DNA from: an uncultured Pseudomonadota bacterium
GTDB taxonomy: Bacteria > Pseudomonadota > Gammaproteobacteria > Competibacterales > Competibacteraceae
Reading direction: 5' to 3'
Length of the DNA stretch: 39,303 nucleotides
Assembly (NCBI GenBank): GCA_903844665.1
Contig: CAIMUS010000130.1
Span: 1 to 39,303 of the forward strand
Position numbers and translations under genes: made by a program. Under the pieces are notes generated by a model. The model did no database searches. It was not told the DNA's origin and saw only the letters and a program-made list of their open reading frames with translations. This document shows positions 5,038-20,135 of the stretch, piece by piece. Positions within the stretch are counted from its first letter, which is position 1, and each line of letters starts with the position of its first letter.

Positions 5038-5307
5038 GTCACGGCGGCGGCACGGTTAACGGGGCAATTGCTGCACAGGCGCTAGCCATCAACATCTTGT
5101 GTATTGCGGTTCGATCCGAAATCGGAGTCAAGCCGCATAAGCCGCATAAGCCCCATTATGTCTTGCTCCTTGACGCAACGGCTGGCATCGGTGACGGGGA
5201 AACGCGGGGTTCTGGTGCAAAGGGTAAAAGCCCAAGACTGAGTACTCACTAGCCACGAGGAAAGGAGCAGGCAAGGGAAAGAACTACCGAGCCAGACATT
5301 CATATAG
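5038..5307. other. Intergenic spacer with short tandem repeat
   Basis: This is the gap between the PRTase gene and the pst promoter region. It contains a short direct repeat, GCCGCATAA twice in succession near 5140. No protein gene, terminator or RNA was recognised. It should contain the promoter of the PRTase/SLOG pair on the minus strand. Confidence 0.4.
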
Positions 5308-5325
5308 CTGTCACAATGCTGTTCT
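5308..5325 (+). promoter_or_regulatory. Pho-box-like site upstream of pstS1
   Basis: CTGTCAC-AATG-CTGTTCT, two PhoB half-sites in the 7-4-7 spacing expected of a Pho box (consensus half-site CTGTCAT). The first half-site is near perfect, the second weaker. It lies about 205 bases before the pstS1 ATG. PhoB control of pst operons is well established; its use here is inferred from position and sequence. Confidence 0.6.
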
Positions 5326-5530
5326 ACTATGAACCGTCCTTAAACTTTCAGGCGCTACGGTCTGCATCCAGCATCGATCCACCCCTTCTTCACTTACTAC
5401 CGCCACCCTGCATTTTTTACATCATGGCAAGAACTCGACATTCATGCCGGTCAGTTGCAAGTCGCAGGCGCAATCGTCGTGCTCCGATCGCGGCTATCCG
5501 CTGAAAAGCACTCCTACGAAGGATATCACC

Positions 5531-6559
5531 ATGAAGCGTAAATCTGTCGGTACCGCTGTCGTTACCGTTCTTATGACCCTGCTGCTGATAACGCCCGGCC
5601 TGGCGCAAGAGAAAATTCGCCTGATCGGTTCCGGCGCCAGTTTTCCCTTCCCTCTGTATTCGGTCTGGTTCAAGGATTTCAGCCGGGCTACCAAGAATGT
5701 CACCGTCGACTATCAGGCCAAGGGCAGCGGCGCGGGCGTTCAGGACTTTATCAATCACACCGTCGATTTCGCGGCCAGCGACGCGGCCATGACCGCCGAG
5801 GAGATCGCCAAGGTCGAGGGCGGGGTCGTGCTGCTGCCGATGACCGCGGGAGTAATCGTCCTCACCTATAACCTGCCCGGCATAAAGGGTCTGAAACTGT
5901 CACGGGACGTCTATCCGGATATCTTTCTGGGCAAGATCACCAAATGGAGCGATCCGCGCCTTACCAAGGCCAACCCGGATCTCAAACTGCCGGACCTGCC
6001 GATCACCGTCGTGCGTCGCTCCGACAGCAGCGGCACCACTTTCGTTTTCACCAAACACCTGAGCGCCATCAGCGAGGCCTGGAGAAACGGTCCCGACGCC
6101 GGCACCACCGTGCAATGGCCCCAGAGCGATAAGATCGTCGCCGCGCCCAAGAACGATGGCGTGACCGCCACCGTAAAGCAGACGCCGGGAGCGATCGGCT
6201 ATATCGAATACAGCTATGCCTTGCTGACCAAGGCCGATACGGCCTTGCTGCAAAACAAGACCGGTAACTACATCGCCGCCGGCGCCGAGTCGGGTAAGGT
6301 GGCTCTGGCCAGCGTCACCCTGCCGGCCAACCTGATAGTCTGGCTGGAAGACCCGGCCGGCGCCGAGGCCTACCCGATCACCACCTTTACCTGGATGCTG
6401 TTCTATAAAAAGCAGGATCCCAACAAGGCGGAGGTGTTGCGTAATCTGGTGGAATACTGCCTGACCGAGGGTCAGAAACTGTCCGAGAGGATGGGCTACA
6501 TTCCGCTGCCGGATAACGTGATCGAGCGCATTCGGGCGGTTTCCAAGGACATTCAGTAG
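5531..6559 (+). CDS. pstS: Phosphate-binding protein PstS, first copy
   Basis: The periplasmic phosphate-binding protein of the Pst ABC importer, 342 residues. A signal peptide of about 25 residues ends with PGLAQ. Ligand-binding motifs are GSGASFPFPLY, KGSGAGVQDF, AASDAAM and RSDSSGTTFVFTKHLS. The C-terminal LSERMGYIPLP is typical of the family. I chose the ATG at 5531 because it opens directly on the signal peptide and has an AAGGA upstream; an open frame extends further 5' but has no signal-like start. It is the first gene of the pst operon, 120 bases before pstC, behind a Pho-box-like site. Confidence 0.95.
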   Translation: MKRKSVGTAVVTVLMTLLLITPGLAQEKIRLIGSGASFPFPLYSVWFKDFSRATKNVTVDYQAKGSGAGVQDFINHTVDFAASDAAMTAEEIAKVEGGVVLLPMTAGVIVLTYNLPGIKGLKLSRDVYPDIFLGKITKWSDPRLTKANPDLKLPDLPITVVRRSDSSGTTFVFTKHLSAISEAWRNGPDAGTTVQWPQSDKIVAAPKNDGVTATVKQTPGAIGYIEYSYALLTKADTALLQNKTGNYIAAGAESGKVALASVTLPANLIVWLEDPAGAEAYPITTFTWMLFYKKQDPNKAEVLRNLVEYCLTEGQKLSERMGYIPLPDNVIERIRAVSKDIQ

Positions 6560-6575
6560 ATGGCTGGGAACCTTT

Positions 6576-6622
6576 CACGCCCCTCGCCTACTTGCGGGAG
6601 AGGGGTTGGGGGCGAGGGCTTT
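6576..6622. repeat. Stem-loop in the pstS-pstC gap
   Basis: CCCTCGCC and GGCGAGGG form an 8-bp stem with a loop of about 20 bases between pstS1 and pstC. Such intercistronic hairpins often stabilise the upstream pstS transcript so that the binding protein is made in excess, but this role is inferred. No T-run follows, so full termination is unlikely. Confidence 0.5.
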
Positions 6623-6679
6623 TCCTGTCATCACCCCTTCCGGTCTCTACTCGAAACTCGCACTGTTTAAAGAGCCACT

Positions 6680-7654
6680 ATGCTGAATCCCTTCGCCAAA
6701 GCCGATACCGTCGATTCCATTTCGGGACCACCGTCTCAATTCGATTATGGCTGGGACCGGACGTTCCAGTTCCTGGCGCTCGCTGGCGCCTGGATGATCC
6801 TGATTTTGGTGGTGTTTATTCTGTGGGAGATCGGGGGGCAGGCGCTGCCGGCCATGCGTGACTATGGCCTGAGCTTTATCACCTCGACCACCTGGGACGC
6901 CAACAAGAGTCAGTTCGGCATCCTGCCGCAAATCTGGGGCACGCTGTACAGTTCCATCCTGGCGCTGCTTATCGGCGGTTTTTTCGGGATTGCGGTCGCG
7001 ATCTTCCTCACCCAGGATTTCCTGCAGCCGTCGCTTGCGGCGGTGTTCCGCACCATCGTGGAACTGCTCGCCGCCATCCCCAGCGTGGTGTATGGCTTAT
7101 GGGGCATTTATGTGGTGATTCCCGCCTTGCGCCCGCTGGCCAACTGGCTGCATGAAACTTTAGGGTGGATTCCCTTGTTCGGCACCTCCCTCAGCGGACC
7201 GGGAATGATGCCCGCCGCGATCGTGCTGGCGATCATGATCCTGCCTACCATCACCGCCATCTCCCAGGACGCCCTGCGCCTGGTCCCGTACAAGATCAAG
7301 GAAGCCGCCTATGGCATGGGAACGACCCATTGGGAGGCCATCCTGAAAGTCATCGTGCCGACGGCCTCGGCGGGTATCTTCGGCGCCCTGGTGCTCGGTT
7401 TCGGGCGCGCCCTCGGGGAGACCATGGCCCTGGCCATGTTGATCGGCAATTCCAATCAGATCAGCCTGTCGCTGTTCTCGCCGGCCAACACGCTGGCGTC
7501 CCTGCTGGCCTCCAGCTTCCCGGAAGCCGGACAGACGGAAATCAAGGCGCTGATGTACGCCGCCATGGTGCTGCTGGCGATCACCCTGCTGGTCAACCTC
7601 ATGGGCACCGCCATCATGACGTACACCTCCAAGAAGTTCGAGGGTAAAAAATGA
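6680..7654 (+). CDS. pstC: Phosphate ABC transporter permease PstC
   Basis: One of the two membrane subunits of the Pst importer, 324 residues with six or more hydrophobic helices, the first at about 35-57. The ABC-coupling EAA loop is EAAYGMGTTHWEAILKVIVP, and RALGETMALAMLIG follows as in PstC. It forms the channel with PstA and receives phosphate from PstS. The ATG at 6680 gives the usual cytoplasmic N-terminal tail. The stop overlaps the pstA start by four bases (7651-7654). Confidence 0.95.
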   Translation: MLNPFAKADTVDSISGPPSQFDYGWDRTFQFLALAGAWMILILVVFILWEIGGQALPAMRDYGLSFITSTTWDANKSQFGILPQIWGTLYSSILALLIGGFFGIAVAIFLTQDFLQPSLAAVFRTIVELLAAIPSVVYGLWGIYVVIPALRPLANWLHETLGWIPLFGTSLSGPGMMPAAIVLAIMILPTITAISQDALRLVPYKIKEAAYGMGTTHWEAILKVIVPTASAGIFGALVLGFGRALGETMALAMLIGNSNQISLSLFSPANTLASLLASSFPEAGQTEIKALMYAAMVLLAITLLVNLMGTAIMTYTSKKFEGKK

Positions 7655-8547
7655 ACGAGCCCAGCACGGCGGTTGACTTCGCCACCAGAATCGAATTGCC
7701 GAAACTCGAAAAGTCGTTTTTCGTAGGTCGCGCCTTGAGCAGCAGTCTGCTCACCATCGGCGTCTGGGTGGCCGCCATTCTCGCCAGCGTACCGTTGTTC
7801 TCGGTACTGTACATGTTGATCGTACGCGGCGGCGCCCGACTGAATCTGGAGCTCTTCACCGAGCTGCCGCCCGCCGGTTTCGAACTGGGCGGTGGTATCG
7901 GTAACGCCATCGTCGGCACCCTGGTGATGGTGGGTATCGCGACCCTGATCAGCGTGCCTGTCGGCATCCTGGCGGGGGTGTATCTGGCCGATTTGGGGCC
8001 GGACACTAAAGTGGCCAGCGCCGCCCGGTTCCTGGCCAAGACTCTCACCGGCCTGCCCTCCATCCTGGCCGGGGTGTTCATCTATGCGGCGGTGGTGCTG
8101 GCGATGGGCGGCTACTCGGCCATTGCCGGCGGTATCGCCCTGGCGGTCACGATGCTGCCGACCGTGGTCCTCACCGCCGAAGAAGCGATGAAGATGGTGC
8201 CGCAGAAGATGAAGGACGCCGCTTACGGCATGGGCTGCACCCGCACCCAGGTAATCTGGAAAATCGTGCTGCCCACCGGCCTTCCCGGCATCCTCACCGG
8301 CGTCATGCTGGCGGTGGCCGGCGCCGCCGGCAATTCGGCGCCCCTGTTGTTCACCGCGCTGTTCAGTAACTACTGGCTGCACAGTCTGCGGGAGCCCACG
8401 GCCTCGCTGTCGATCCTGATTTACAACTTTTCCGGCATGCCGTTCGACAACCAGATCGAGTTGGCCTGGGCCGCCTCCCTGGTGCTGGTGCTGATCGTAC
8501 TGGTGTTCAGTATCCTCAGCCGAATCATCGGACGTCCCAAGGTTTGA
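7651..8547 (+). CDS. pstA: Phosphate ABC transporter permease PstA
   Basis: The second membrane subunit, 298 residues. The EAA loop is DAAYGMGCTRTQVIWKIVLP, and the segment GAAGNSAPLLFTALFSNYW is typical of PstA. Five to six hydrophobic helices are visible. The start overlaps the pstC stop, indicating translational coupling, and pstB follows after 32 bases. The long minus-strand frame crossing this gene is a shadow. Confidence 0.95.
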   Translation: MNEPSTAVDFATRIELPKLEKSFFVGRALSSSLLTIGVWVAAILASVPLFSVLYMLIVRGGARLNLELFTELPPAGFELGGGIGNAIVGTLVMVGIATLISVPVGILAGVYLADLGPDTKVASAARFLAKTLTGLPSILAGVFIYAAVVLAMGGYSAIAGGIALAVTMLPTVVLTAEEAMKMVPQKMKDAAYGMGCTRTQVIWKIVLPTGLPGILTGVMLAVAGAAGNSAPLLFTALFSNYWLHSLREPTASLSILIYNFSGMPFDNQIELAWAASLVLVLIVLVFSILSRIIGRPKV

Positions 8548-8579
8548 CACCGTTCTGAGAAAATTCGAGAGGTCCAGCC

Positions 8580-9425
8580 ATGAATGCAACTGCTGAAGCG
8601 ATGGCAATCCCCACCGCCGTCAACGCCGTCCCCACCACGGCCGCCATGCCCGCCAGCATAGCGATCGATTGTAAATTGGATAAAGTCTTCTACGGTGATT
8701 TCCTGGCCGTGCGGGACAGCCATGTTCCCATCGAGAAGGGGAAAATCACCGGCTTTATCGGCCCCTCCGGCTGTGGCAAGAGCACCGTCCTGCGCTGCCT
8801 GAACCGGATGAATGACCTGATCAAAATCTTCCGGTTCCAAGGCCATGTGCACTTCCATGGCCAGGATGTGTACGCCCGGAACGTGGACCCGGTCATCTTA
8901 CGGCGCTATATCGGGATGGTGTTCCAGCAACCCAATCCCTTCACCATGAGCATTTTCGACAATGTCGCCTTCGGCTTGCGGTTGAATCGCTTCAAGGGCA
9001 ATCTGCAGGAGCAGGTGGAAAAGTCCCTGCGCCGCGCCGCGCTCTGGGATGAGGTCAAGGACAAGCTTAACAACAGTGGACTGTCGCTCTCGGGCGGGCA
9101 GCAACAGCGGTTGTGCATCGCCCGGGCCATCGCCACTGAGCCCAGCATACTGCTGATGGATGAACCCTGTTCCGCGCTGGACCCGGTCGCCACCCGCCGG
9201 ATCGAGGAACTGATGATCGAATTGAAGGCGAAGTACACCATTGCCCTGGTGACCCACAACATGCAGCAGGCCATGCGCGTCGCCGATAAGACCGCCTTCT
9301 TCGGAGTGGACATCTCCAAGGGTGGTCGCACCGGCTACCTGGTCGAAATGGGAGATACCCAACAGATCTTCGAAAATCCCAAAGAAGATTTGACCAAGAA
9401 ATATATTCGCGGTGAGTTCAGCTAA
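8580..9425 (+). CDS. pstB: Phosphate ABC transporter ATPase PstB
   Basis: The ATP-hydrolysing subunit, 281 residues. Walker A is GPSGCGKST (about residue 61), the Q-loop is in [19 protein letters not shown], the ABC signature is LSGGQQQRL, and Walker B is [13 protein letters not shown], followed by the H-loop VTHNM. The N-terminal 30 residues form an Ala/Thr-rich extension beyond the usual start. Nineteen bases separate it from pstS2. A phoU gene, often next in pst operons, is not present. Confidence 0.96.
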
Positions 9426-9444
9426 CGCGCACCAGGGAGTCGCC

Positions 9445-10509
9445 ATGAAACTCACTCATATCATCGGGATCATCGCCGCGACCGTGGTGTTGGCGGCAGC
9501 GCCGGCTTCGGCGCAGGAACCGCCATTACCTGCCAAGACCACTGCCAATGTCGTGCGCCTGCAAGGCGCCGGCGCTACCCTACCCGCGCCTCTGTACGAC
9601 AAATGGATCGCGGTCTACCAGCACGACCACCCGACGGTCAGCATCAGCTATGACGCCGTCGGCAGCGGCGAAGGCATCAAGCGCTTCATTGCCGGTTCAG
9701 TGGATTTCGGCGCCAGCGATTCGGCCATGCAGGACAGTGAGATCGCCCAGGTACAGCGTGGCGTGCGGCTGGCGCCTGTCACCGCCGGCATGGTAGTGCT
9801 CGCCTACAACCTGCCGGAACTGAAAGGCGAGTTGAAGCTGAAGCGGGAGGTCTATCTGGCTATTTTTGCCGGCAGGATTCGCGACTGGGACGATCCCCGG
9901 ATCAAAGCTTCCAACCCGAATCTGGCCCTGCCCCACAAAACCATTGCGGTGGTGGTGCGCCTGGACAGCAGCGGCACCACCTATGCCTTCACCAATCACC
10001 TGAGCGCCATCAGCGCCGAGTGGCGGGATCGCGGACCGGGGGTCGGCAAGGTCATCGGCTGGCCCGGCGGCGCCATGATCGCCCGTGGCAACGAAGGGGT
10101 AGCAACCCGGATCAAGATCAGCGACGGCGCAATTGGTTATCTGGAATACGGTTTTGCCAGGCGCCTGAATCTGCCGATGGCCTGGTTGGAGAACAAGGCA
10201 GGTCACTTCATCCAACCGGACGCCCAGAGTGGACAGCAGGCGCTCCTGAACGGTTCGGCGGCGGCGCCCGATAATTTACGGCTGTTCATGCCCGATCCCG
10301 AGGGCGAAACGGCCTACCCGATCGTGACCTACAGTTGGCTGCTGCTGTATGACCAATACCCCGACGCCGCCAAGCTGGCGGCGCTCAAGGACTTCGTTTC
10401 CTGGGCGCTGGGCGAAGGCCAGCGCTATAGTGCGGAATTAGGTTATATCCCGCTGCCCCAGCCCGTGGCCACCCAGGCGCTGAAGCGGGTGGACGGCATT
10501 CACCCTTGA
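9445..10509 (+). CDS. pstS: Phosphate-binding protein PstS, second copy
   Basis: A second PstS, 354 residues, closing the same operon. A signal peptide of about 23 residues ends PASAQ. Ligand motifs parallel the first copy: GAGATLPAPLY, VGSGEGIKRF, GASDSAM and RLDSSGTTYAFTNHLS. The two proteins are related along their length but clearly diverged, so the duplication is not recent. Two binding proteins on one permease may differ in affinity or in preference for phosphate against similar oxyanions; this is inference. A good start is the ATG at 9445 with GGGAG upstream. Confidence 0.93.
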   Translation: MKLTHIIGIIAATVVLAAAPASAQEPPLPAKTTANVVRLQGAGATLPAPLYDKWIAVYQHDHPTVSISYDAVGSGEGIKRFIAGSVDFGASDSAMQDSEIAQVQRGVRLAPVTAGMVVLAYNLPELKGELKLKREVYLAIFAGRIRDWDDPRIKASNPNLALPHKTIAVVVRLDSSGTTYAFTNHLSAISAEWRDRGPGVGKVIGWPGGAMIARGNEGVATRIKISDGAIGYLEYGFARRLNLPMAWLENKAGHFIQPDAQSGQQALLNGSAAAPDNLRLFMPDPEGETAYPIVTYSWLLLYDQYPDAAKLAALKDFVSWALGEGQRYSAELGYIPLPQPVATQALKRVDGIHP

Positions 10510-10562
10510 CTGCCGCGATCGATGGAGCCTCCCCCCTCTTGCTTCGACACGCATCGCCTCCG

Positions 10563-10601
10563 CTCCCGCCAGCGGGCGCGCTGTCCGTACACTGGCGGGA
10601 G
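10563..10601. terminator. Stem-loop after the pst operon
   Basis: CTCCCGCCAG and CTGGCGGGAG form a perfect 10-bp stem with a 19-base loop, 54 bases after the pstS2 stop. There is no following T-run, so it is either a weak or Rho-assisted terminator or a transcript-stabilising hairpin. Confidence 0.45.
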
Positions 10602-10686
10602 GTGACGGCGCCATCTCCCCTCCGGTAGTGCACGACACCCGCCGTGCGGTCCCATGGCTGCATTCAGCCCCGCTGTGGACGATCCT

Positions 10687-11370
10687 ATGAACCACGTTTG
10701 TGCTCCCACGACCACGCGGGCCAGGGACCGCTTGAATCTGGAGGCGATCGAGTCATCGCTGCGGGCCGTGCAGCGGGCGTTCCCGGAGATCAACGCGCGC
10801 TTGCAAACTGCCCGGGATCCCCTGAGCGATGAAGTGATCGCCAACCTGATGGCCGGTTATGCGTTTATCGATGCGGCCATCGCCGATGGCCTGAATTTGT
10901 TTGCTCTAGGCAATTTAAAATATCTGCTCGAACTGAACCGGCTGGTTCTCTGTGGAACGGACCCAAGGAAGCTGAAGGACTACGCCGACCATATCGACGC
11001 CACCGAGGCGCATTTCTACGGGCATACCGAAGGCAGCATCGGGAGCATTATCGAATGGCACGCCAGCCATCGACATCGTTCCCCCTGGCGACGGGCGGCG
11101 GGCGTCTATGTCCGTATTCTCAGCGAGCCACAGCTCTATATCGAGGGCAACCATCGCTGCGGCGCCCTGATCATGAGTTACCTGCTGGCGCGGGAGGGCA
11201 AACCGCCTTTCGTGCTGACGGTGGACAACGCCAAGGCTTACTTCGATCCCTCGACGCTCATCACAGCCACCAGAAAAACCTCCTTCGCACTGCTGTTCAA
11301 GCTGCCGCATCTTGTGCGGGATTTTGCCCAGTTTCTGAAGGAGCAGGCGAATGATCAATATCTGCTATAG
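10687..11370 (+). CDS. Degenerate Fic-like protein
   Basis: A 227-residue protein with a Fic-like central segment. QLYIEGNHRCGALIMSYLL resembles the Fic motif HxFx(D/E)GNGRxxR, but the catalytic His position is not histidine and the second glycine of GNGR is replaced by His. The N-terminal part is helical (RLNLEAIESSLRAVQRAFPE). The preceding EWHASHRHRSPWRRAAG places the motif where Fic proteins carry it. If it has the fold, classical AMP transfer is unlikely. The C-terminal 30 residues are repeated downstream of the next gene (12859-12954). I prefer the ATG at 10687; one at 10654 would add 11 residues. Confidence 0.6.
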   Translation: MNHVCAPTTTRARDRLNLEAIESSLRAVQRAFPEINARLQTARDPLSDEVIANLMAGYAFIDAAIADGLNLFALGNLKYLLELNRLVLCGTDPRKLKDYADHIDATEAHFYGHTEGSIGSIIEWHASHRHRSPWRRAAGVYVRILSEPQLYIEGNHRCGALIMSYLLAREGKPPFVLTVDNAKAYFDPSTLITATRKTSFALLFKLPHLVRDFAQFLKEQANDQYLL

Positions 11371-14424: not shown

Positions 14425-14815
14425 CTAAAAGAAGAAGGTATAAACGGTGATGACCACGATTTCGTTAGCCTCTTCCTTGATGACCGGTGCAACCTGTTTA
14501 ATGGAGTAGTGTGTACCTTGCCAGTGTTGATTGAAAGGAAAGTTGTAGCGTAACCGTTCAGACCCCTCTCCCCGACCCTCCCCCACAAGGGGGGAGGGAG
14601 TTATTGCAAAACAGCTACTTAGCGTATCCCCCCTCCCCTTGTGGGAGGGGGTTAGGGGGAGGGGGGTGAACGCTTACGTTGTAGCGGCACAATTCCCGCC
14701 CTTGCTTGGCCGTCTCTTTGGTTCCATGCCTAATCGCGATGCGCACTTCCTCTTCGGCGGCTCCCCGTTCTTGGCATTGTTCCTGTGCATGGCGCGTCAG
14801 ACGAATGGGTTTCAT
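14425..14815 (-). pseudogene. DUF4258 gene split by a MITE
   Basis: The first part, from the ATG at 14815 (GAGAGG ribosome-binding site), reads MKPIRLTRHAQEQCQERG and RHGTKETAKQGRELCRYN, typical of DUF4258. The frame then enters the MITE at 14677. Removing the element and one copy of the 8-bp duplication restores an open frame that continues FPFNQHWQGTHYSIKQVAP and ends VVITVYTFFF at 14425, an 84-residue protein of normal length. The insertion adds foreign residues and a premature end. It is the putative partner of the DUF2283 gene downstream. Confidence 0.88.
14550..14677 (-). mobile_element. 127-bp IS66-like MITE, copy 2
   Basis: This is the inverted second copy of the element at 196-322, with ends GTAACCGTTCA and TGAACGCTTAC. 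It is flanked by a perfect 8-bp direct repeat GTTGTAGC at 14542-14549 and 14678-14685. The copies differ by about two substitutions and one extra C, so both insertions are probably recent. It splits a DUF4258 gene. Confidence 0.92.
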
Positions 14816-14835
14816 GCGTTTTCCTCTCAGATTGC

Positions 14836-15055
14836 AGGGTGCGCACCGCGCACCCTTTACGATGTCGGGATATTCCCATGCGTTCGCGGGGGATGCGCCA
14901 AAATCCCATGCCGACAATTGTCGAAATATCCAAGTTCATGCCCTGTCCAAGATGGGTTTAAGGTGCGCGGTGCGGCACCCTATGCGGCTTGCCCACCAAT
15001 TCTGCCGGTTCCGCGTGGGCAAACGATGAAGCCGTTTGCCCACCCTACCTGGCTA
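14836..15055. repeat. REP-like palindromes downstream of the tubulin operon
   Basis: Two repeat types. AGGGTGCGCACCGCGCACC at about 14835-14855 has a near-inverse partner at about 14960-14981. GTGGGCAAAC with GTTTGCCCACCCTACC lies at 15015-15050 and matches the copy at 14046-14083. No gene is supported in 14816-15090. Confidence 0.6.
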
Positions 15056-15058
15056 CAA

Positions 15059-15084
15059 AACTGTCCCGCCTTAAGTTGGTAGCC
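15059..15084 (-). mobile_element. Solo terminal repeat of an IS
   Basis: AACTGTCCCGCCTTAAG followed by TTGGTAGCC matches both ends of the IS remnant at 34223-34573 (AACTGTCCCGGCTTAAGTGG at its right end and the inverse at its left). No transposase sequence accompanies it, so it is a relic end of the same IS family. It abuts the stop of the PstS-OmpA gene. Confidence 0.6.
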
Positions 15085-15090
15085 CTTTTT

Positions 15091-16677
15091 TCATTTCAAC
15101 CAGACTTCGACGCGGCGGTTCTTTTCTTTGTTTTCGGGGGTGTCATTGGGAGCTACGAAGGCTTCGGCTCCCAGGCCGACTACCTGGGAAAACGCCAAGC
15201 CCTCAGGGGCAAGTTCCCTCCTGACTATTTCGGCGCGACTTCGCGACAGCGTGACGTTGGCGGACGGGGAACCTGAGGAGTCGGCAAAGCCGATGAGAAT
15301 GACTTTCTTATTTTGATACTGTGGCTGCGACAAAACGCCGACGATGCGCCCGATGTCGCGATTGGCGCGAGTATCCAAATCGTCACTGCCGGTGCGGAAA
15401 CGGAATCGAGTTGGTATCTCGATGGCGCCCCTCGTCAATTCCCGCCATCGGGCGGATTGGTTGCGAGCATCATTAGGATCGGAGGCGACGGGGGTCACAT
15501 CGAGATTGACAAGACCTGTCGAGGCAACAACTGGCTGGGCCGCAGCGCCCACGGCGAACTCGATGAATTTGAACACGTTCGGATTCGACGGCTTTTCTGC
15601 GGTATAGAGAAAAAGCCGCCGGGACAGCATGTAATCCTCGGTCTTGATGGTGAGGAGGCTCGGCTTGCGGGCCTCGACGCCGGTATCGGAGAGCGCGATC
15701 ACTTTGTTCGAGCCGATGTAGTTCAGCCCGATGAAGCCGATGCCCGCCGGGTCGCTGCTGACGGACTCGGAGAGCTTCCCGCTGTCTTCGAAACGCTGGG
15801 CGTTGGCGGCAAGGGTCTTGCCATGCGCCTTAAGGACGGCTTCTTTGAAGAAATCGTAGGTACCGGATTTGTCGTCGCGGGCATAGATAGCGATGGTTCC
15901 CGCCCGGCCACCCAGTTGCGACCAGTCGGTGAGAGTTCCACTGAAGATGTCGGCGACTTGCGTGACGGAGAGCGTCTTGATCGGGTTGGACGGATGGACG
16001 ATCAGGGCGATGCCATCCAAAGCGAGCACATGCTCGCTGGCGTTGGAGGTGAGATCGCCGAGCGTCGGCAAGAGGGCCTGCCGTTCCTCCGCCTTGATCT
16101 TGCGCGAGGACATGCCAATGTCGCAGAGGCCGTCTTTAAGGTCTTTGAAGGCGGTGCCGGAGCCGTGAGCCTGGATTTCGATCTGTTCGATCTGGCCGTT
16201 GCGCTCGCCGACGATGAAACTTTCCTCTTCTTTGGCGCCGGGCACCTTATGGATGTTGGTGTAGCCTTCCTGTTTCAGGAAGGCTTCGGCCAAGGCCGGG
16301 AGCAGCTTGCTGCCGATGGTGTTGGAACCGTGGAAGTGCAGGAGGGTCTGGGCGGTCGGCGGCGGTGGAGGAGTAGGCGGTACAGCCGGTAAAACACGAG
16401 GTGGCTCGGGAGGCATCGCGGGAAAGGGCTTAGATTGATCATGGGAGATAAACCAGTATACCCCTCCGGCGATCAGCAGGAGCAACAGCCCCCCCAGCAC
16501 GGCAAATGCCAAACCGTTTCCACCGGCCCCGCCTCCGACATTAGCGCCTTTGGCTAGAATGAGATTTGCCCCGCATTCCGGGCATTTGGCGGGCGCACCC
16601 GTGGCGATGGAGATTGTTTCGCCTCGGTCGGCCTTGTCGCAGTTGCCGATATTCGGACATTTGTACAAAGTAGCCAT
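15091..16677 (-). CDS. Zn-ribbon/TM/PstS-like/OmpA envelope protein
   Basis: A 528-residue multidomain protein. Residues 1-36 hold four cysteines (C7, C13, C32, C35) spaced as a zinc ribbon. One membrane helix lies at about 56-77, then a proline-rich linker at 83-108. Residues about 112-395 are a PstS-type binding domain, with HGSNTIGSKLLPALAEAF, QAHGSGTAF and DDKSGTYDFF. Residues about 410-528 are an OmpA C-terminal domain, with FRFRTGSDDLDTRANRDI and VTLSRSRAEIVRREL. OmpA domains bind peptidoglycan. The inferred topology is a cytoplasmic ribbon, one membrane pass, and periplasmic ligand-binding and wall-anchoring domains. It starts 22 bases after the tubulin-like gene stop, so they share an operon. 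Confidence 0.88.
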   Translation of the reverse strand: MATLYKCPNIGNCDKADRGETISIATGAPAKCPECGANLILAKGANVGGGAGGNGLAFAVLGGLLLLLIAGGVYWFISHDQSKPFPAMPPEPPRVLPAVPPTPPPPPTAQTLLHFHGSNTIGSKLLPALAEAFLKQEGYTNIHKVPGAKEEESFIVGERNGQIEQIEIQAHGSGTAFKDLKDGLCDIGMSSRKIKAEERQALLPTLGDLTSNASEHVLALDGIALIVHPSNPIKTLSVTQVADIFSGTLTDWSQLGGRAGTIAIYARDDKSGTYDFFKEAVLKAHGKTLAANAQRFEDSGKLSESVSSDPAGIGFIGLNYIGSNKVIALSDTGVEARKPSLLTIKTEDYMLSRRLFLYTAEKPSNPNVFKFIEFAVGAAAQPVVASTGLVNLDVTPVASDPNDARNQSARWRELTRGAIEIPTRFRFRTGSDDLDTRANRDIGRIVGVLSQPQYQNKKVILIGFADSSGSPSANVTLSRSRAEIVRRELAPEGLAFSQVVGLGAEAFVAPNDTPENKEKNRRVEVWLK

Positions 16678-16699
16678 GATTTTCTCCCGGAGCTATGGA

Positions 16700-19699
16700 T
16701 CAGTTGACTTTGAGGGCCTGGATGGCGGTGCGGGCGGCGGTTTCAAATCGCCGGTAGACCGGGTCTTCATAGTCGTTGCGGCGGTCGGCAAGGATTTGCT
16801 TGAGTTCGTCGCGGACTTTTTGCTGGAGTTCAGCCCGTTGGTCGATGTGTCGCCAAGCGTCCTGCTGAAGTTGCGCGGCGGAGGTTTCCTCCAGGCGTTG
16901 AGCCGCCTCAAGGTCGATGTTTTCGGAGACTTCCGGGAGAGTTTTGCCGAGCTTGGTGCGAACCGGCAGCCCGTCGGCGTCTTCGCCGATCAGATAAAGC
17001 TCGGTGATGCCGGTGGTGGGGCTGGTGACGACAGCGATGAGCCCCATTGTCTTGGCGAGGAGGAGCGCCGGCAGAGCCTTCTCGCGCTGGGCGCGTTCGT
17101 CGGCGAGGAGGAGTTCGGGGAATTGGCTGCCGTCACCTTCGCCGTGGAGTTCGAGCTTGATCCGATCCGGTTTGTCGCTACAGTTGATGCGGCGGTCATA
17201 GTTTTCCTTGAGAAATTGGGTGGCCTTGGCATAACGGAGCGGGAACAGGTTGGTGATGCCGAGCAGGGTGATTTCGTTGGGTTTGGTGTCGCTTTCGATG
17301 ATTTCGACCGGCACACCGCCGCGCAGATGCTCGCGGAACAGGGTTTTCAAATCTTCGCTGAAGCCGGAATACTCTCCCGCCTTCGGCAGGATGACGAGGA
17401 ATTGGGAAACCTTGGCTTTGCCAGCGCCGAGGATGATGGCCTGAGGGTCAAACTCCAGGTAGTTGCCGGCGTGCTCCACCAAGTCATGGATGAATTTCCG
17501 CAGATCGTCGGGTTTGCCGGAATATTCCCGTTCGAGCTGGCCGATGAGGTTGACGCCGAGCAAGGGCTGGCGGTCACGGTCGGAGGCAACCAGGGCGTCG
17601 TGCGCGGTGGTTGAACTGAGGGCGCATTTCTGTTCCAGCACATCGAAAAACCGTTGACGGCTGATGCGGTTATGGAAGGCTGAAAACGTCGGGTCGGCGG
17701 CGATCTGTTCGATGAGGGCGAGACGGACCGCCTGCGACTGGCGGGTTTGCTCGGTCTTGTCCTTTTCCAGATCGCGGGCGAAAAGACGCACGTTTTCGGC
17801 GTTGTAGAAGCGCACCAACGACTGGCGGAGATCCGGCTTGTCGGCGTCGTTGCAACGTTCGTCGATGTGCTCCTTGAATTCCTTGATGGATTCGTCCACC
17901 AATTTGGAACACAGGCCGATGTCGGTGGCGAGGCGGTTGAACTCGGTGACGGACTCCTGCAACAGCCGCTTGCCGAAGGACCAAGCTTCCGCCTGGGTAC
18001 GGGCGGTGTAGAGTTCCCGCAGGCATTCGCCCTGGGCGTCGAGAAGTTTTCGGCGTTTACCGAACACTTGCGACAGGATCCCCACCTTGGCCCACTCGGC
18101 GCGGTTGGCGGCGACTTTATGCTCGGCGTTTTCAATGTTGGACTTGGCGCGGACGACCTTGTCGTCCACGGCAAGCAACCGTTCCTCCAGCGTGGCGATA
18201 AGGGCGGTCACGCAACGGGAAAGGTCGTGCATGGATTTGACGCCGTTTTTCCAATCGTCGAAAAGTTCGGCCTCGACCCGGCGGCGCAATTCGCGGACAT
18301 GATCCTTGCGGGCTTCGAGCTTGGTTTCGTAAAACTTACGGACGCCAAGGGTGCGATAGTTTTCCTCAAACCGTTGGGCCATCAACTTTTCGAGTTCGTT
18401 GAGCCAAACCTTGTCGTCCTGCGCTTGCACCAGTCCCATGAATTGCGGGAGGATGTCCAGCCATTCGTTGATGATGGGTTTCCATTTTTTATTGTTGATT
18501 TCCTCGGGGAGAATGCCCCGGGACAGGGTGAAATGCTCGTCGGTGAGGAACCAGCGTTCCAGTGTCTGCTTGTCCCTGACGAATTCGCCGAAATCCTGGT
18601 TGCGCGCTTCGTCGCGGAAGCCGAAGGTGTCGTCCCAATTGTTGAAGCGCAATTGCAGCGCGGCCTGGCGGGCAAATTTGTAGGTGAGGAATTCGCGAAT
18701 CTCGATCTCGGGGACAGCCAGCCGTTTGATGCCGAAGGTCAGGAAACGCTTGCTGCGCAAAGGCGCATTGGAAGCGGGACGGGTTTCCGGCGTGCCGTCG
18801 CCGTTTTCGGCGTTCTCCATTTTTTCCAGTAGCTTGAGGGCTTCGGCGTTGCGCACGGCGACGAGTTTTTGGAACAAAAAATCGGCGACGATGCCGGGCA
18901 AAGTCTTGTCCACGTCCACTTGCAGGCCGTTTTCGTTGCGGTTGCAGAAGACATAACAGCCGTTGAATGGGTCGCCAAGTTGCAACCGTTCGCCGCGCTC
19001 GGCGATGTCGTGGGGTTGGTAGGCGCCGACGCTGAGAGCATTCAGTTCGGCGAGGGCGGCGTAGCCGTTGGCGTGGTAGTTGCCGGTATCCCAGTTTGGA
19101 TTGGGGATTTCCTCGGGCAACAGCGCGTAGACCACGATGCGATACATCTTGGAATCGCGGTAAAGGGCGCGAATCTGCGCCAAGACATCCATGAGGCTGC
19201 CGCTGCCGGTGCCGCCGGCCAGTCCGCAGCAGACATGGAAGGTGACACTGGCGTCGCCGCCAGTGGCGAGTTCCCCGGCCAGTTGTTTGAGCTGATCCTT
19301 GAACTGACGGGATTTGCAGGCGAACAGAAAACGGCCGAGCCGGCGTTTTTGTCCACCCAGGGTCTCGCCCACGATGCTGTTGAGAATATCCTTCCATTGT
19401 TCGCGGCTGCCGATCCAGGGTTGGATATTGGGATGGCCGCCGAGGTTGTCGAGAATCTGGTTCAGGTTGCCGCCGGTGATGAGGAGTTGGCTGCGCGGGG
19501 CCAGTTGGACGCTATCTCCCAAAATGCGCCAACTGGCGTCATCGATGGCCATCATTTCTTTGCTGGAATCAACGTAGAGATAGCGGAGCTTGACGAGATC
19601 GGGATCGTTGCTGCGAAATTCCTGGAATACGTTCTTGCGCAGGGCGCGCAAAATTTTTCCGCCGGTGCCGCCCAAGCCGATAAGTAAATGATTCTTCAT
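16700..19699 (-). CDS. Tubulin/FtsZ-superfamily protein
   Basis: A cytoplasmic protein of 999 residues. It opens with MKNHLLIGLGGTGGKILRAL, the first glycine-rich nucleotide loop of the superfamily, and carries CGLAGGTGSGSLMD at about residues 158-171, the tubulin/FtsZ G-box. The N-terminal third fits the tubulin-like domain family of uncharacterised bacterial proteins; the rest is long, charged and helical (about 480-720 looks coiled-coil) with no recognised domain. FtsZ itself is about 400 residues, so this is not the division protein. Related large FtsZ-like proteins are proposed to remodel membranes. The ATG at 19699 is chosen because it starts directly on the nucleotide loop; an open frame extends to a GTG at 19801 (34 more residues). 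It is cotranscribed with the PstS-OmpA gene. Confidence 0.85.
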   Translation of the reverse strand: MKNHLLIGLGGTGGKILRALRKNVFQEFRSNDPDLVKLRYLYVDSSKEMMAIDDASWRILGDSVQLAPRSQLLITGGNLNQILDNLGGHPNIQPWIGSREQWKDILNSIVGETLGGQKRRLGRFLFACKSRQFKDQLKQLAGELATGGDASVTFHVCCGLAGGTGSGSLMDVLAQIRALYRDSKMYRIVVYALLPEEIPNPNWDTGNYHANGYAALAELNALSVGAYQPHDIAERGERLQLGDPFNGCYVFCNRNENGLQVDVDKTLPGIVADFLFQKLVAVRNAEALKLLEKMENAENGDGTPETRPASNAPLRSKRFLTFGIKRLAVPEIEIREFLTYKFARQAALQLRFNNWDDTFGFRDEARNQDFGEFVRDKQTLERWFLTDEHFTLSRGILPEEINNKKWKPIINEWLDILPQFMGLVQAQDDKVWLNELEKLMAQRFEENYRTLGVRKFYETKLEARKDHVRELRRRVEAELFDDWKNGVKSMHDLSRCVTALIATLEERLLAVDDKVVRAKSNIENAEHKVAANRAEWAKVGILSQVFGKRRKLLDAQGECLRELYTARTQAEAWSFGKRLLQESVTEFNRLATDIGLCSKLVDESIKEFKEHIDERCNDADKPDLRQSLVRFYNAENVRLFARDLEKDKTEQTRQSQAVRLALIEQIAADPTFSAFHNRISRQRFFDVLEQKCALSSTTAHDALVASDRDRQPLLGVNLIGQLEREYSGKPDDLRKFIHDLVEHAGNYLEFDPQAIILGAGKAKVSQFLVILPKAGEYSGFSEDLKTLFREHLRGGVPVEIIESDTKPNEITLLGITNLFPLRYAKATQFLKENYDRRINCSDKPDRIKLELHGEGDGSQFPELLLADERAQREKALPALLLAKTMGLIAVVTSPTTGITELYLIGEDADGLPVRTKLGKTLPEVSENIDLEAAQRLEETSAAQLQQDAWRHIDQRAELQQKVRDELKQILADRRNDYEDPVYRRFETAARTAIQALKVN

Positions 19700-20135
19700 G
19701 ATGGGATACTCAAAGGTGAGTGCTTCGAACAGTGACTTGACGATCTTGCTGAGAAAAGGGCGTTTCGACTGGAAATCTTCGATGGCCGCCGCGGCATACA
19801 CTTCGGCAAGTTTGTTCCTGGAAGCCGTTTGGGTACGTTGGAATGCTGCCGGAAGCCGCCGCCGTTGTTGAAAAATCCTCGATGCCAGGTTTCTGCATTT
19901 CGCCGTAGGCCTTTCGGTGTGCGGATTCTTCCCATGTCATAAATAATATTTTATCTGATAGCTGATAGTCAGCCCAGGTAGAGGATACTGCCGCACCAAA
20001 ATTTAGGTGGTGTCCCTCAGTTTACGTGATGGGTATCATCAAGCGCAGGAAACAAGTGTTTGATTGCATCCAGGGTCTTCAGAAACGGTGCCGGTACCCG
20101 ATAGCCCAGCAACTCCGCCGTGGTCCCGGACGTGT
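19700..20135. other. Upstream region of the tubulin-like gene
   Basis: The first 240 bases keep an open frame into the tubulin-like gene and also a second frame (19710-19940 minus) that overlaps it. Neither has a recognisable family, and a frameshifted upstream gene tail is possible. An AT-rich stretch at 19938-19960 (TAAAATATTATTTATG on the minus strand) is the likeliest promoter area. Nothing was recognised in 19961-20135. Confidence 0.35.

Follow-up and report, generated by a model that had tools for sequence, protein, structure and literature searches.

An FtsZl1-type tubulin gene and the gene for a predicted envelope-spanning adaptor with exchangeable outer domains form a conserved bacterial pair

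The FtsZl1 branch of the tubulin superfamily was described in 2010, in a paper whose main text reports a tubulin-like protein with a coiled coil, encoded near OmpA-domain, vWA, kinase and GTPase proteins, and proposes a role in membrane remodelling (PMC2875224). According to that text, the family has neither a recognisable T6-H7 region nor a recognisable C-terminal domain. Reviewer comments published with the paper pointed to a periplasmic binding protein adjoining FtsZl1 in Polaromonas, which the authors set aside as present in one or a few organisms, and objected that FtsZl1, being cytoplasmic, would have no access to OmpA partners in the periplasm (PMC2875224). Later work on FtsZl1 with such partners was not found in the literature searched. 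Tubulins are also present, along with zinc ribbons, vWA, FGE and caspase domains, in some of the NTP-dependent conflict systems described elsewhere (Kaur et al. 2020; PMC7159879). Here we analyse a gene pair of the FtsZl1 type contained in a contig stretch of 39,303 nucleotides (the window) from an uncultured bacterium of the Competibacteraceae. The original prediction for this pair had held that no system of its design was described; since the association of FtsZl1 with OmpA-domain neighbours was published in 2010, that statement was too strong.

Gene B lies downstream of gene A, its ATG 22 nt beyond the stop codon of A (Table 1). The open reading frames, the spacing between them and the domain order of B are as originally predicted, the latter being supported by Pfam matches for the PstS-type and OmpA domains and by the structural model for the membrane helix. 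Comparison with the nearest relative, a Methylococcaceae metagenome-assembled genome (MAG; locus L045), gave dN/dS values of 0.10 for A and 0.14 for B, indicating that both genes are maintained. This purifying selection, and the recurrence of the pair in many bacterial phyla, argue that the arrangement is not due to chance. A pattern scan of viral contigs gave no relative and the single plasmid match was a 1.09-Mb Paraburkholderia replicon, so that a mobile or viral origin of the pair was rejected.

Table 1. Position of the gene pair, its parts and the adjoining remnant in the window
Feature	Position	Strand	Remarks
Gene A	16700-19699	-	999 aa from ATG; Tubulin_2 (PF13809)/FtsZl1 family, tubulin superfamily
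A residues 1-351, nucleotide-binding domain up to H9	18647-19699	-	T1-like GLGGTGG and T4 AGGTGSG loops
A residues 352-763, mostly helical insert with long coiled coils	17411-18646	-	between H9 and S8; model-based boundary
A residues 764-866, rest of tubulin C-terminal domain (S8, H10, S9, S10, H11)	17102-17410	-	model-based
Intergenic gap A/B	16678-16699	-	22 nt; ribosome-binding-site-like GGGAG; a terminator would not fit
Gene B	15091-16677	-	528 aa; zinc ribbon, membrane helix, Pro-rich linker, PstS-type domain, OmpA domain
B residues 1-45, cytoplasmic putative zinc ribbon	16543-16677	-	Cys7-x5-Cys13 ... Cys32-x2-Cys35
B residues 57-78, single membrane helix, N-terminus inside	16444-16509	-	model and charge bias
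B residues 79-108, Pro-rich linker	16354-16443	-	sequence and model
B residues 109-395, PstS-type periplasmic binding domain	15493-16353	-	motifs GSGTAF, SSR, ARDDKSGT
B residues 416-528, OmpA peptidoglycan-binding domain	15094-15432	-	Asp466 and Arg481 conserved
Third-gene remnant, frameshifted membrane protein	19727-20006 (about)	-	75% identity over 36 aa, E 6e-11

The assignment of A to the tubulin/FtsZ superfamily was borne out by a match to PF13809 over 354 of its 356 positions (E 1.1e-67; 229.3 bits against a cut-off of 27) and by a model (pLDDT 89.5, from 48 sequences) that contains a complete tubulin fold, the GTP-binding part included. The T1 and T4 residues are conserved in all 48 sequences or nearly so, and the AGGTGSG region is invariant. 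Single-sequence and profile searches gave no significant solved relative of A. The best structural match is CetZ (Foldseek E 1.4e-7; VIA-align with 3zid, Z 26.6 over 312 residues at 3.9 Å), followed by tubulins and BtubA (Z about 24-25, 326-362 residues aligned). All the top matches of Foldseek and VIA-align are tubulins or CetZ, with Z of 24-27 over 308-362 residues, and the alignments extend from residue 1 to about residue 866 of the model, taking in essentially the whole of tubulin. After the helix at 331-351, the model presents some 400 mostly helical residues, among them the coiled-coil helices 490-537 and 548-614 that correspond to the central coiled coil of FtsZl1/Tubulin_2, and then strand 764-772, helix 775-791, strands 798-803 and 809-819 and helix 825-839. 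The order of these elements fits S8-H10-S9-S10-H11 of tubulin, and we read the model as placing the coiled coil within the C-terminal tubulin domain, as an insert that separates H9 from S8. The model also suggests that T6-H7 and the C-terminal tubulin domain are present in A, although diverged. A candidate for T7 is the conserved acidic stretch ENAENGD (E298, N299, E305), taken from the alignment and not from a superposition.

In the model of B (pLDDT 83) the helix 57-78, a PstS fold and an OmpA domain are formed. The four cysteines of the ribbon are invariant in all 73 aligned relatives of B, hereafter adaptors, most of which keep the pattern C-x5-C ... C-x2-C. No Pfam model matches the ribbon of B convincingly or covers the adaptor ribbon, and when its sequence was compared with solved structures, nothing but generic zinc fingers matched, and these aligned with the second half of the ribbon. 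Lysines and arginines flanking the adaptor helix average 3.45 on the inner side against 1.51 on the outer one, and are more numerous on the N side in 65 of 89 adaptors, the reverse occurring in 8; this distribution places the ribbon inside the cell. The order cytoplasm, membrane, periplasm and wall that had been foreseen for B is thus supported by the modelled helix and by the charge bias. At the C-terminal end, PF00691 is matched with E 2.3e-15 (57.1 bits), and D466 and R481, which we take from what is known of OmpA domains to be the peptidoglycan-binding residues, are invariant in 15 aligned relatives. Membership of B in an anti-phage family was rejected, the similarity to ZorB seen with PADLOC being only of the OmpA/MotB type.

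The PstS-type domain matches PBP_like_2 (PF12849, E 2.2e-30) and reaches 182.9 bits with the PstS family model TIGR02136, under its cut-off of 206.6. The fold in the model is closest to solved phosphate-binding proteins, and the GSGTAF, SSR and ARDDKSGT motifs align with the same motifs in PstS of Clostridium perfringens, the structure of which (4gd5) is titled with bound phosphate. The domain of the window and most other PstS-type domains have kept these pocket motifs, which are altered in the Methylacidiphilaceae. Judging from the motifs, phosphate is likely to be the ligand in the window and its near relatives. The original suggestion of a phosphate ligand is therefore plausible for this strain but not as a general rule, given the altered motifs in the Methylacidiphilaceae and the presence of another outer domain in most loci.

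To analyse the conservation of the pair, an alignment of three tubulin sequences was used to scan a single genome for each species, which yielded 80 loci; the window, the Paraburkholderia plasmid and one further genome brought the comparison to 83. Cultured bacteria with such loci include Polaromonas glacialis and Methylovulum psychrotolerans. A zinc-ribbon/TM gene is placed directly 3′ of the tubulin gene and on the same strand in 76 of the 83 (47 of 50 clusters at 80% tubulin identity, median gap 25 nt), figures that describe this subfamily and not all FtsZl1, since every search seed already had the adaptor. The exceptions are four Lamprocystis-type loci with a divergent adaptor about 3-4 kb upstream, one locus that stops at a contig end (L097), one with a Cys-rich variant downstream (L095) and one without adaptor (L094). 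No true adaptor adjoins the tubulin in the four other FtsZl1 loci examined (L031, L033, L034 and L144). The distances between tubulins and between adaptors correlate, with a Mantel r of 0.79 for the zinc-ribbon part in 74 loci and of 0.87 for 16 PstS-OmpA proteins; none of 2000 permutations gave a value as high as that observed. Among 321 genomes of the class, strong adaptor matches were found only in the genome of the window and in G586, each with a tubulin of the subfamily directly before the adaptor. Another fifteen matches were weak (E 1e-5 to 1e-3) and were disregarded: none has the first Cys pair, and in most the alignment starts where the ribbon ends and continues into the membrane segment.

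The genome of the window also contains an orphan adaptor (L141:7888-8538, minus strand) with no tubulin beside it, whose neighbours are an nSTAND3 NTPase, an ABC/FtsX-like pair and an FGE-sulfatase protein. Its second Tubulin_2 gene (L031:1791-6290, plus strand) belongs to another subfamily, is 23% identical at the protein level, has a long operon downstream and comes directly after a gene for a TAXI-type binding protein.

The part of the adaptor outside the membrane is exchanged between loci. The PstS-OmpA form occurs in 18 of the 83, in Gamma-, Beta- and Alphaproteobacteria, Acidobacteria and Verrucomicrobia and in one MAG each labelled Chlorobiaceae and Cyanobacteria; its frame is broken in L108. 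In 12 loci a separate TAXI/NMT1_3-type binding protein is encoded by the next gene, as in G586 (contig L074), which belongs to the same family as the genome of the window. An SBP_bac_3-LysM partner is found in five; it is fused to the adaptor in L089, and the two are neighbours in Lamprocystis relatives that have tubulins 79-81% identical to that of the window. Three different binding-protein families thus recur, together in 35 of the 83 loci, and two of the three folds are paired with a peptidoglycan-binding domain of unrelated origin, OmpA or LysM. The other 48 loci have TPR, Ig-like, vWA-like, FGE or unrecognised outer parts, which indicates that ligand binding is not a core feature. On the tubulin tree, a quick tree with long branches present, at least nine changes between classes of outer part are required. 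A branch with support 94/90 separates the PstS-OmpA parts fused to the adaptor from the stand-alone, mostly secreted PstS-OmpA proteins; the tree is compatible with a single fusion to the adaptor, later replaced, and since it allows one event, the assumption of more than one was rejected. Two variants were observed: in one of the 18 PstS-OmpA loci, an adaptor of 933 aa with two PstS domains ahead of OmpA (L049:7618-10416, plus strand) and, in L061 (14819-16498, plus strand) and other Methylacidiphilaceae, a second adaptor with another outer part that directly follows the PstS-OmpA adaptor.

The surroundings of the pair differ between loci as well. A membrane protein of about 260 aa is encoded in 22 related loci, mostly upstream of the tubulin gene. 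In the window it is represented by pieces in two frames that lack both start and end, which shows that the unit was once larger and that this copy lost its third gene while A and B were kept under selection. In L045 the gene after the pair (14593-16842, plus strand) encodes an FHA - ABC ATPase - ABC2 membrane protein that is absent from the window. A small gene 3′ of gene B is interrupted at 14549-14678 by a MITE-like imperfect palindrome of about 130 bp with GTTGTAGC-like repeats at both ends, a second copy of which is located at 193-322; about 40 near-identical copies exist in the genome.

Taking into account (i) the adjacency, (ii) the co-divergence and (iii) the co-occurrence of tubulin and adaptor, we propose that B would be a single-pass inner-membrane adaptor of A. 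In the model, the cytoplasmic zinc ribbon of B would bind A, directly or via its coiled-coil insert. The helix would cross the membrane, the PstS-type domain would bind a small anion, probably phosphate in this strain, and the OmpA domain would tether the complex to peptidoglycan. Whether the tubulin assembles at the membrane, and at which place, may then depend on ligand occupancy or on attachment to the wall; assembly would presumably be GTP-dependent, with the signal passing inwards from the periplasm. That the receptor part controls the tubulin is suggested by the repeated occurrence of binding proteins from three families, of which two come together with wall-binding domains that are unrelated to each other. 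That an envelope-spanning adaptor couples the FtsZl1 tubulin to periplasm and wall, the state of receptor or wall setting tubulin assembly, has in our estimation about an even chance of being correct. The narrower proposal that a membrane-spanning receptor, anchored to the wall and binding a nutrient in the periplasm, directly gates assembly, with PstS, TAXI and SBP_bac_3 as interchangeable receptors on one conserved adaptor, is possible but somewhat doubtful. A conserved adaptor that crosses the membrane once, exposing the ribbon on the inner side and OmpA, LysM or binding domains on the outer one, would provide a definite physical connection for which tests need no more than two proteins. 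Should the tubulin indeed respond to the receptor part, a bacterial cytoskeletal element would be directly controlled by a periplasmic ligand, and we know of no example of such control.

Other roles can be considered for the pair. In a defence or conflict system, the tubulin would be an NTP-driven assembly switch and the variable outer part of the adaptor a sensor or effector, on the lines proposed for the systems of Kaur et al. 2020. Conflict systems characteristically differ a great deal even between closely related bacteria, and the outer domains and neighbours overlap with those of such systems, namely FGE-sulfatase, vWA, DUF4384, TPR and caspase C14 (16 loci); the orphan adaptor beside an nSTAND3 NTPase and an FGE protein points in the same direction. 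The locus of G461 (L143:4388-12851, plus strand) fits a defence role better than it fits the adaptor model: there, a close tubulin is fused to an nSTAND6 STAND NTPase (1381 aa), lacks an adaptor, and has on its flanks a ThsB-like AAA-TIR protein (E 1e-58) as well as a TIR/TPR-S protein. However, the window pair has no effector-like domain, its PADLOC match being the OmpA/MotB-type similarity mentioned above, and the DO-GTPase, which together with GAP1 is central to those systems of Kaur et al. 2020 that have tubulins, was not seen near it with Pfam. Moreover, an invariant adaptor combined with slow swapping of binding proteins resembles sensing rather than an arms race. We hold a defence role to be less likely than the adaptor model but the main and a serious rival to it.

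The membrane remodelling already proposed by Makarova and Koonin (PMC2875224, main text) would have FtsZl1 filaments bend or organise the inner membrane, with OmpA and similar domains as anchors and a PstS domain that has lost ligand binding. The degenerate motifs of the Methylacidiphilaceae agree with this, as they imply that a PstS-type domain can persist without a canonical pocket; yet the pocket motifs are intact in the window and most other loci, and the recurrence of three unrelated binding-protein families is hard to explain for a mere spacer, which makes this role rather improbable. It might also be thought that B concentrates phosphate for a Pst transporter, the tubulin being incidental, because the window carries a complete pst cluster (pstS, pstC, pstA, pstB and a second pstS; plus strand, 5297-11370, genes 5444-10509) 4 kb from gene B. 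We regard this as very improbable. The cluster is on the opposite strand and does not lie beside the pair in L045, an 89%-identical relative; tandem Pho-box-like repeats precede pst (5297-5325) and no such site was found before gene A; and other genomes possess a separate PstS-OmpA protein that is secreted and lacks the adaptor. On these observations, a conserved linkage of the pair to the pst operon and a regulation of the pair by phosphate were both rejected. The reading we prefer remains that of an adaptor coupling the tubulin to periplasm and wall.

Compared with CetZ and with tubulin and FtsZ proper, A has the same fold and the same T1 and T4 loops, but it is only about 14-18% identical, carries the insert of some 400 aa and has no more than a candidate T7. 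The stand-alone proteins annotated as phosphate ABC transporter substrate-binding/OmpA family protein share the PstS-OmpA architecture with B at about 40-45% identity, whereas most of them have, in place of zinc ribbon and TM, an N-terminal segment that resembles a signal peptide, and no tubulin adjoins them. The systems of Kaur et al. 2020 (PMC7159879) have tubulins, zinc ribbons, TM segments, peptidoglycan-binding domains and variable modules in common with the loci studied here; their zinc ribbons are on the GTPase, while no GTPase was seen with Pfam near the window pair. The closest described system is that of PMC2875224, with which the pair shares the tubulin family, the coiled-coil region and an OmpA-domain neighbour, here gene B, and whose Polaromonas and Methylacidiphilum members, among those it describes, belong to the subfamily studied here. 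The vWA protein, kinase and GTPase of that system were not found among the window genes scanned with Pfam. Where its main text leaves the C-terminal domain without a match, the model of A completes the tubulin fold after the insert, and where it places a binding protein in one or a few organisms, 35 of 83 loci have one. The zinc-ribbon/TM adaptor and its fusions to PstS or SBP_bac_3 are absent from that main text, and an envelope-spanning adaptor answers the reviewer's objection that FtsZl1 could not reach its periplasmic OmpA partners. What is new with respect to the main text of PMC2875224 is thus a conserved adaptor as the missing link, and binding proteins as recurrent partners of the FtsZl1 tubulin.
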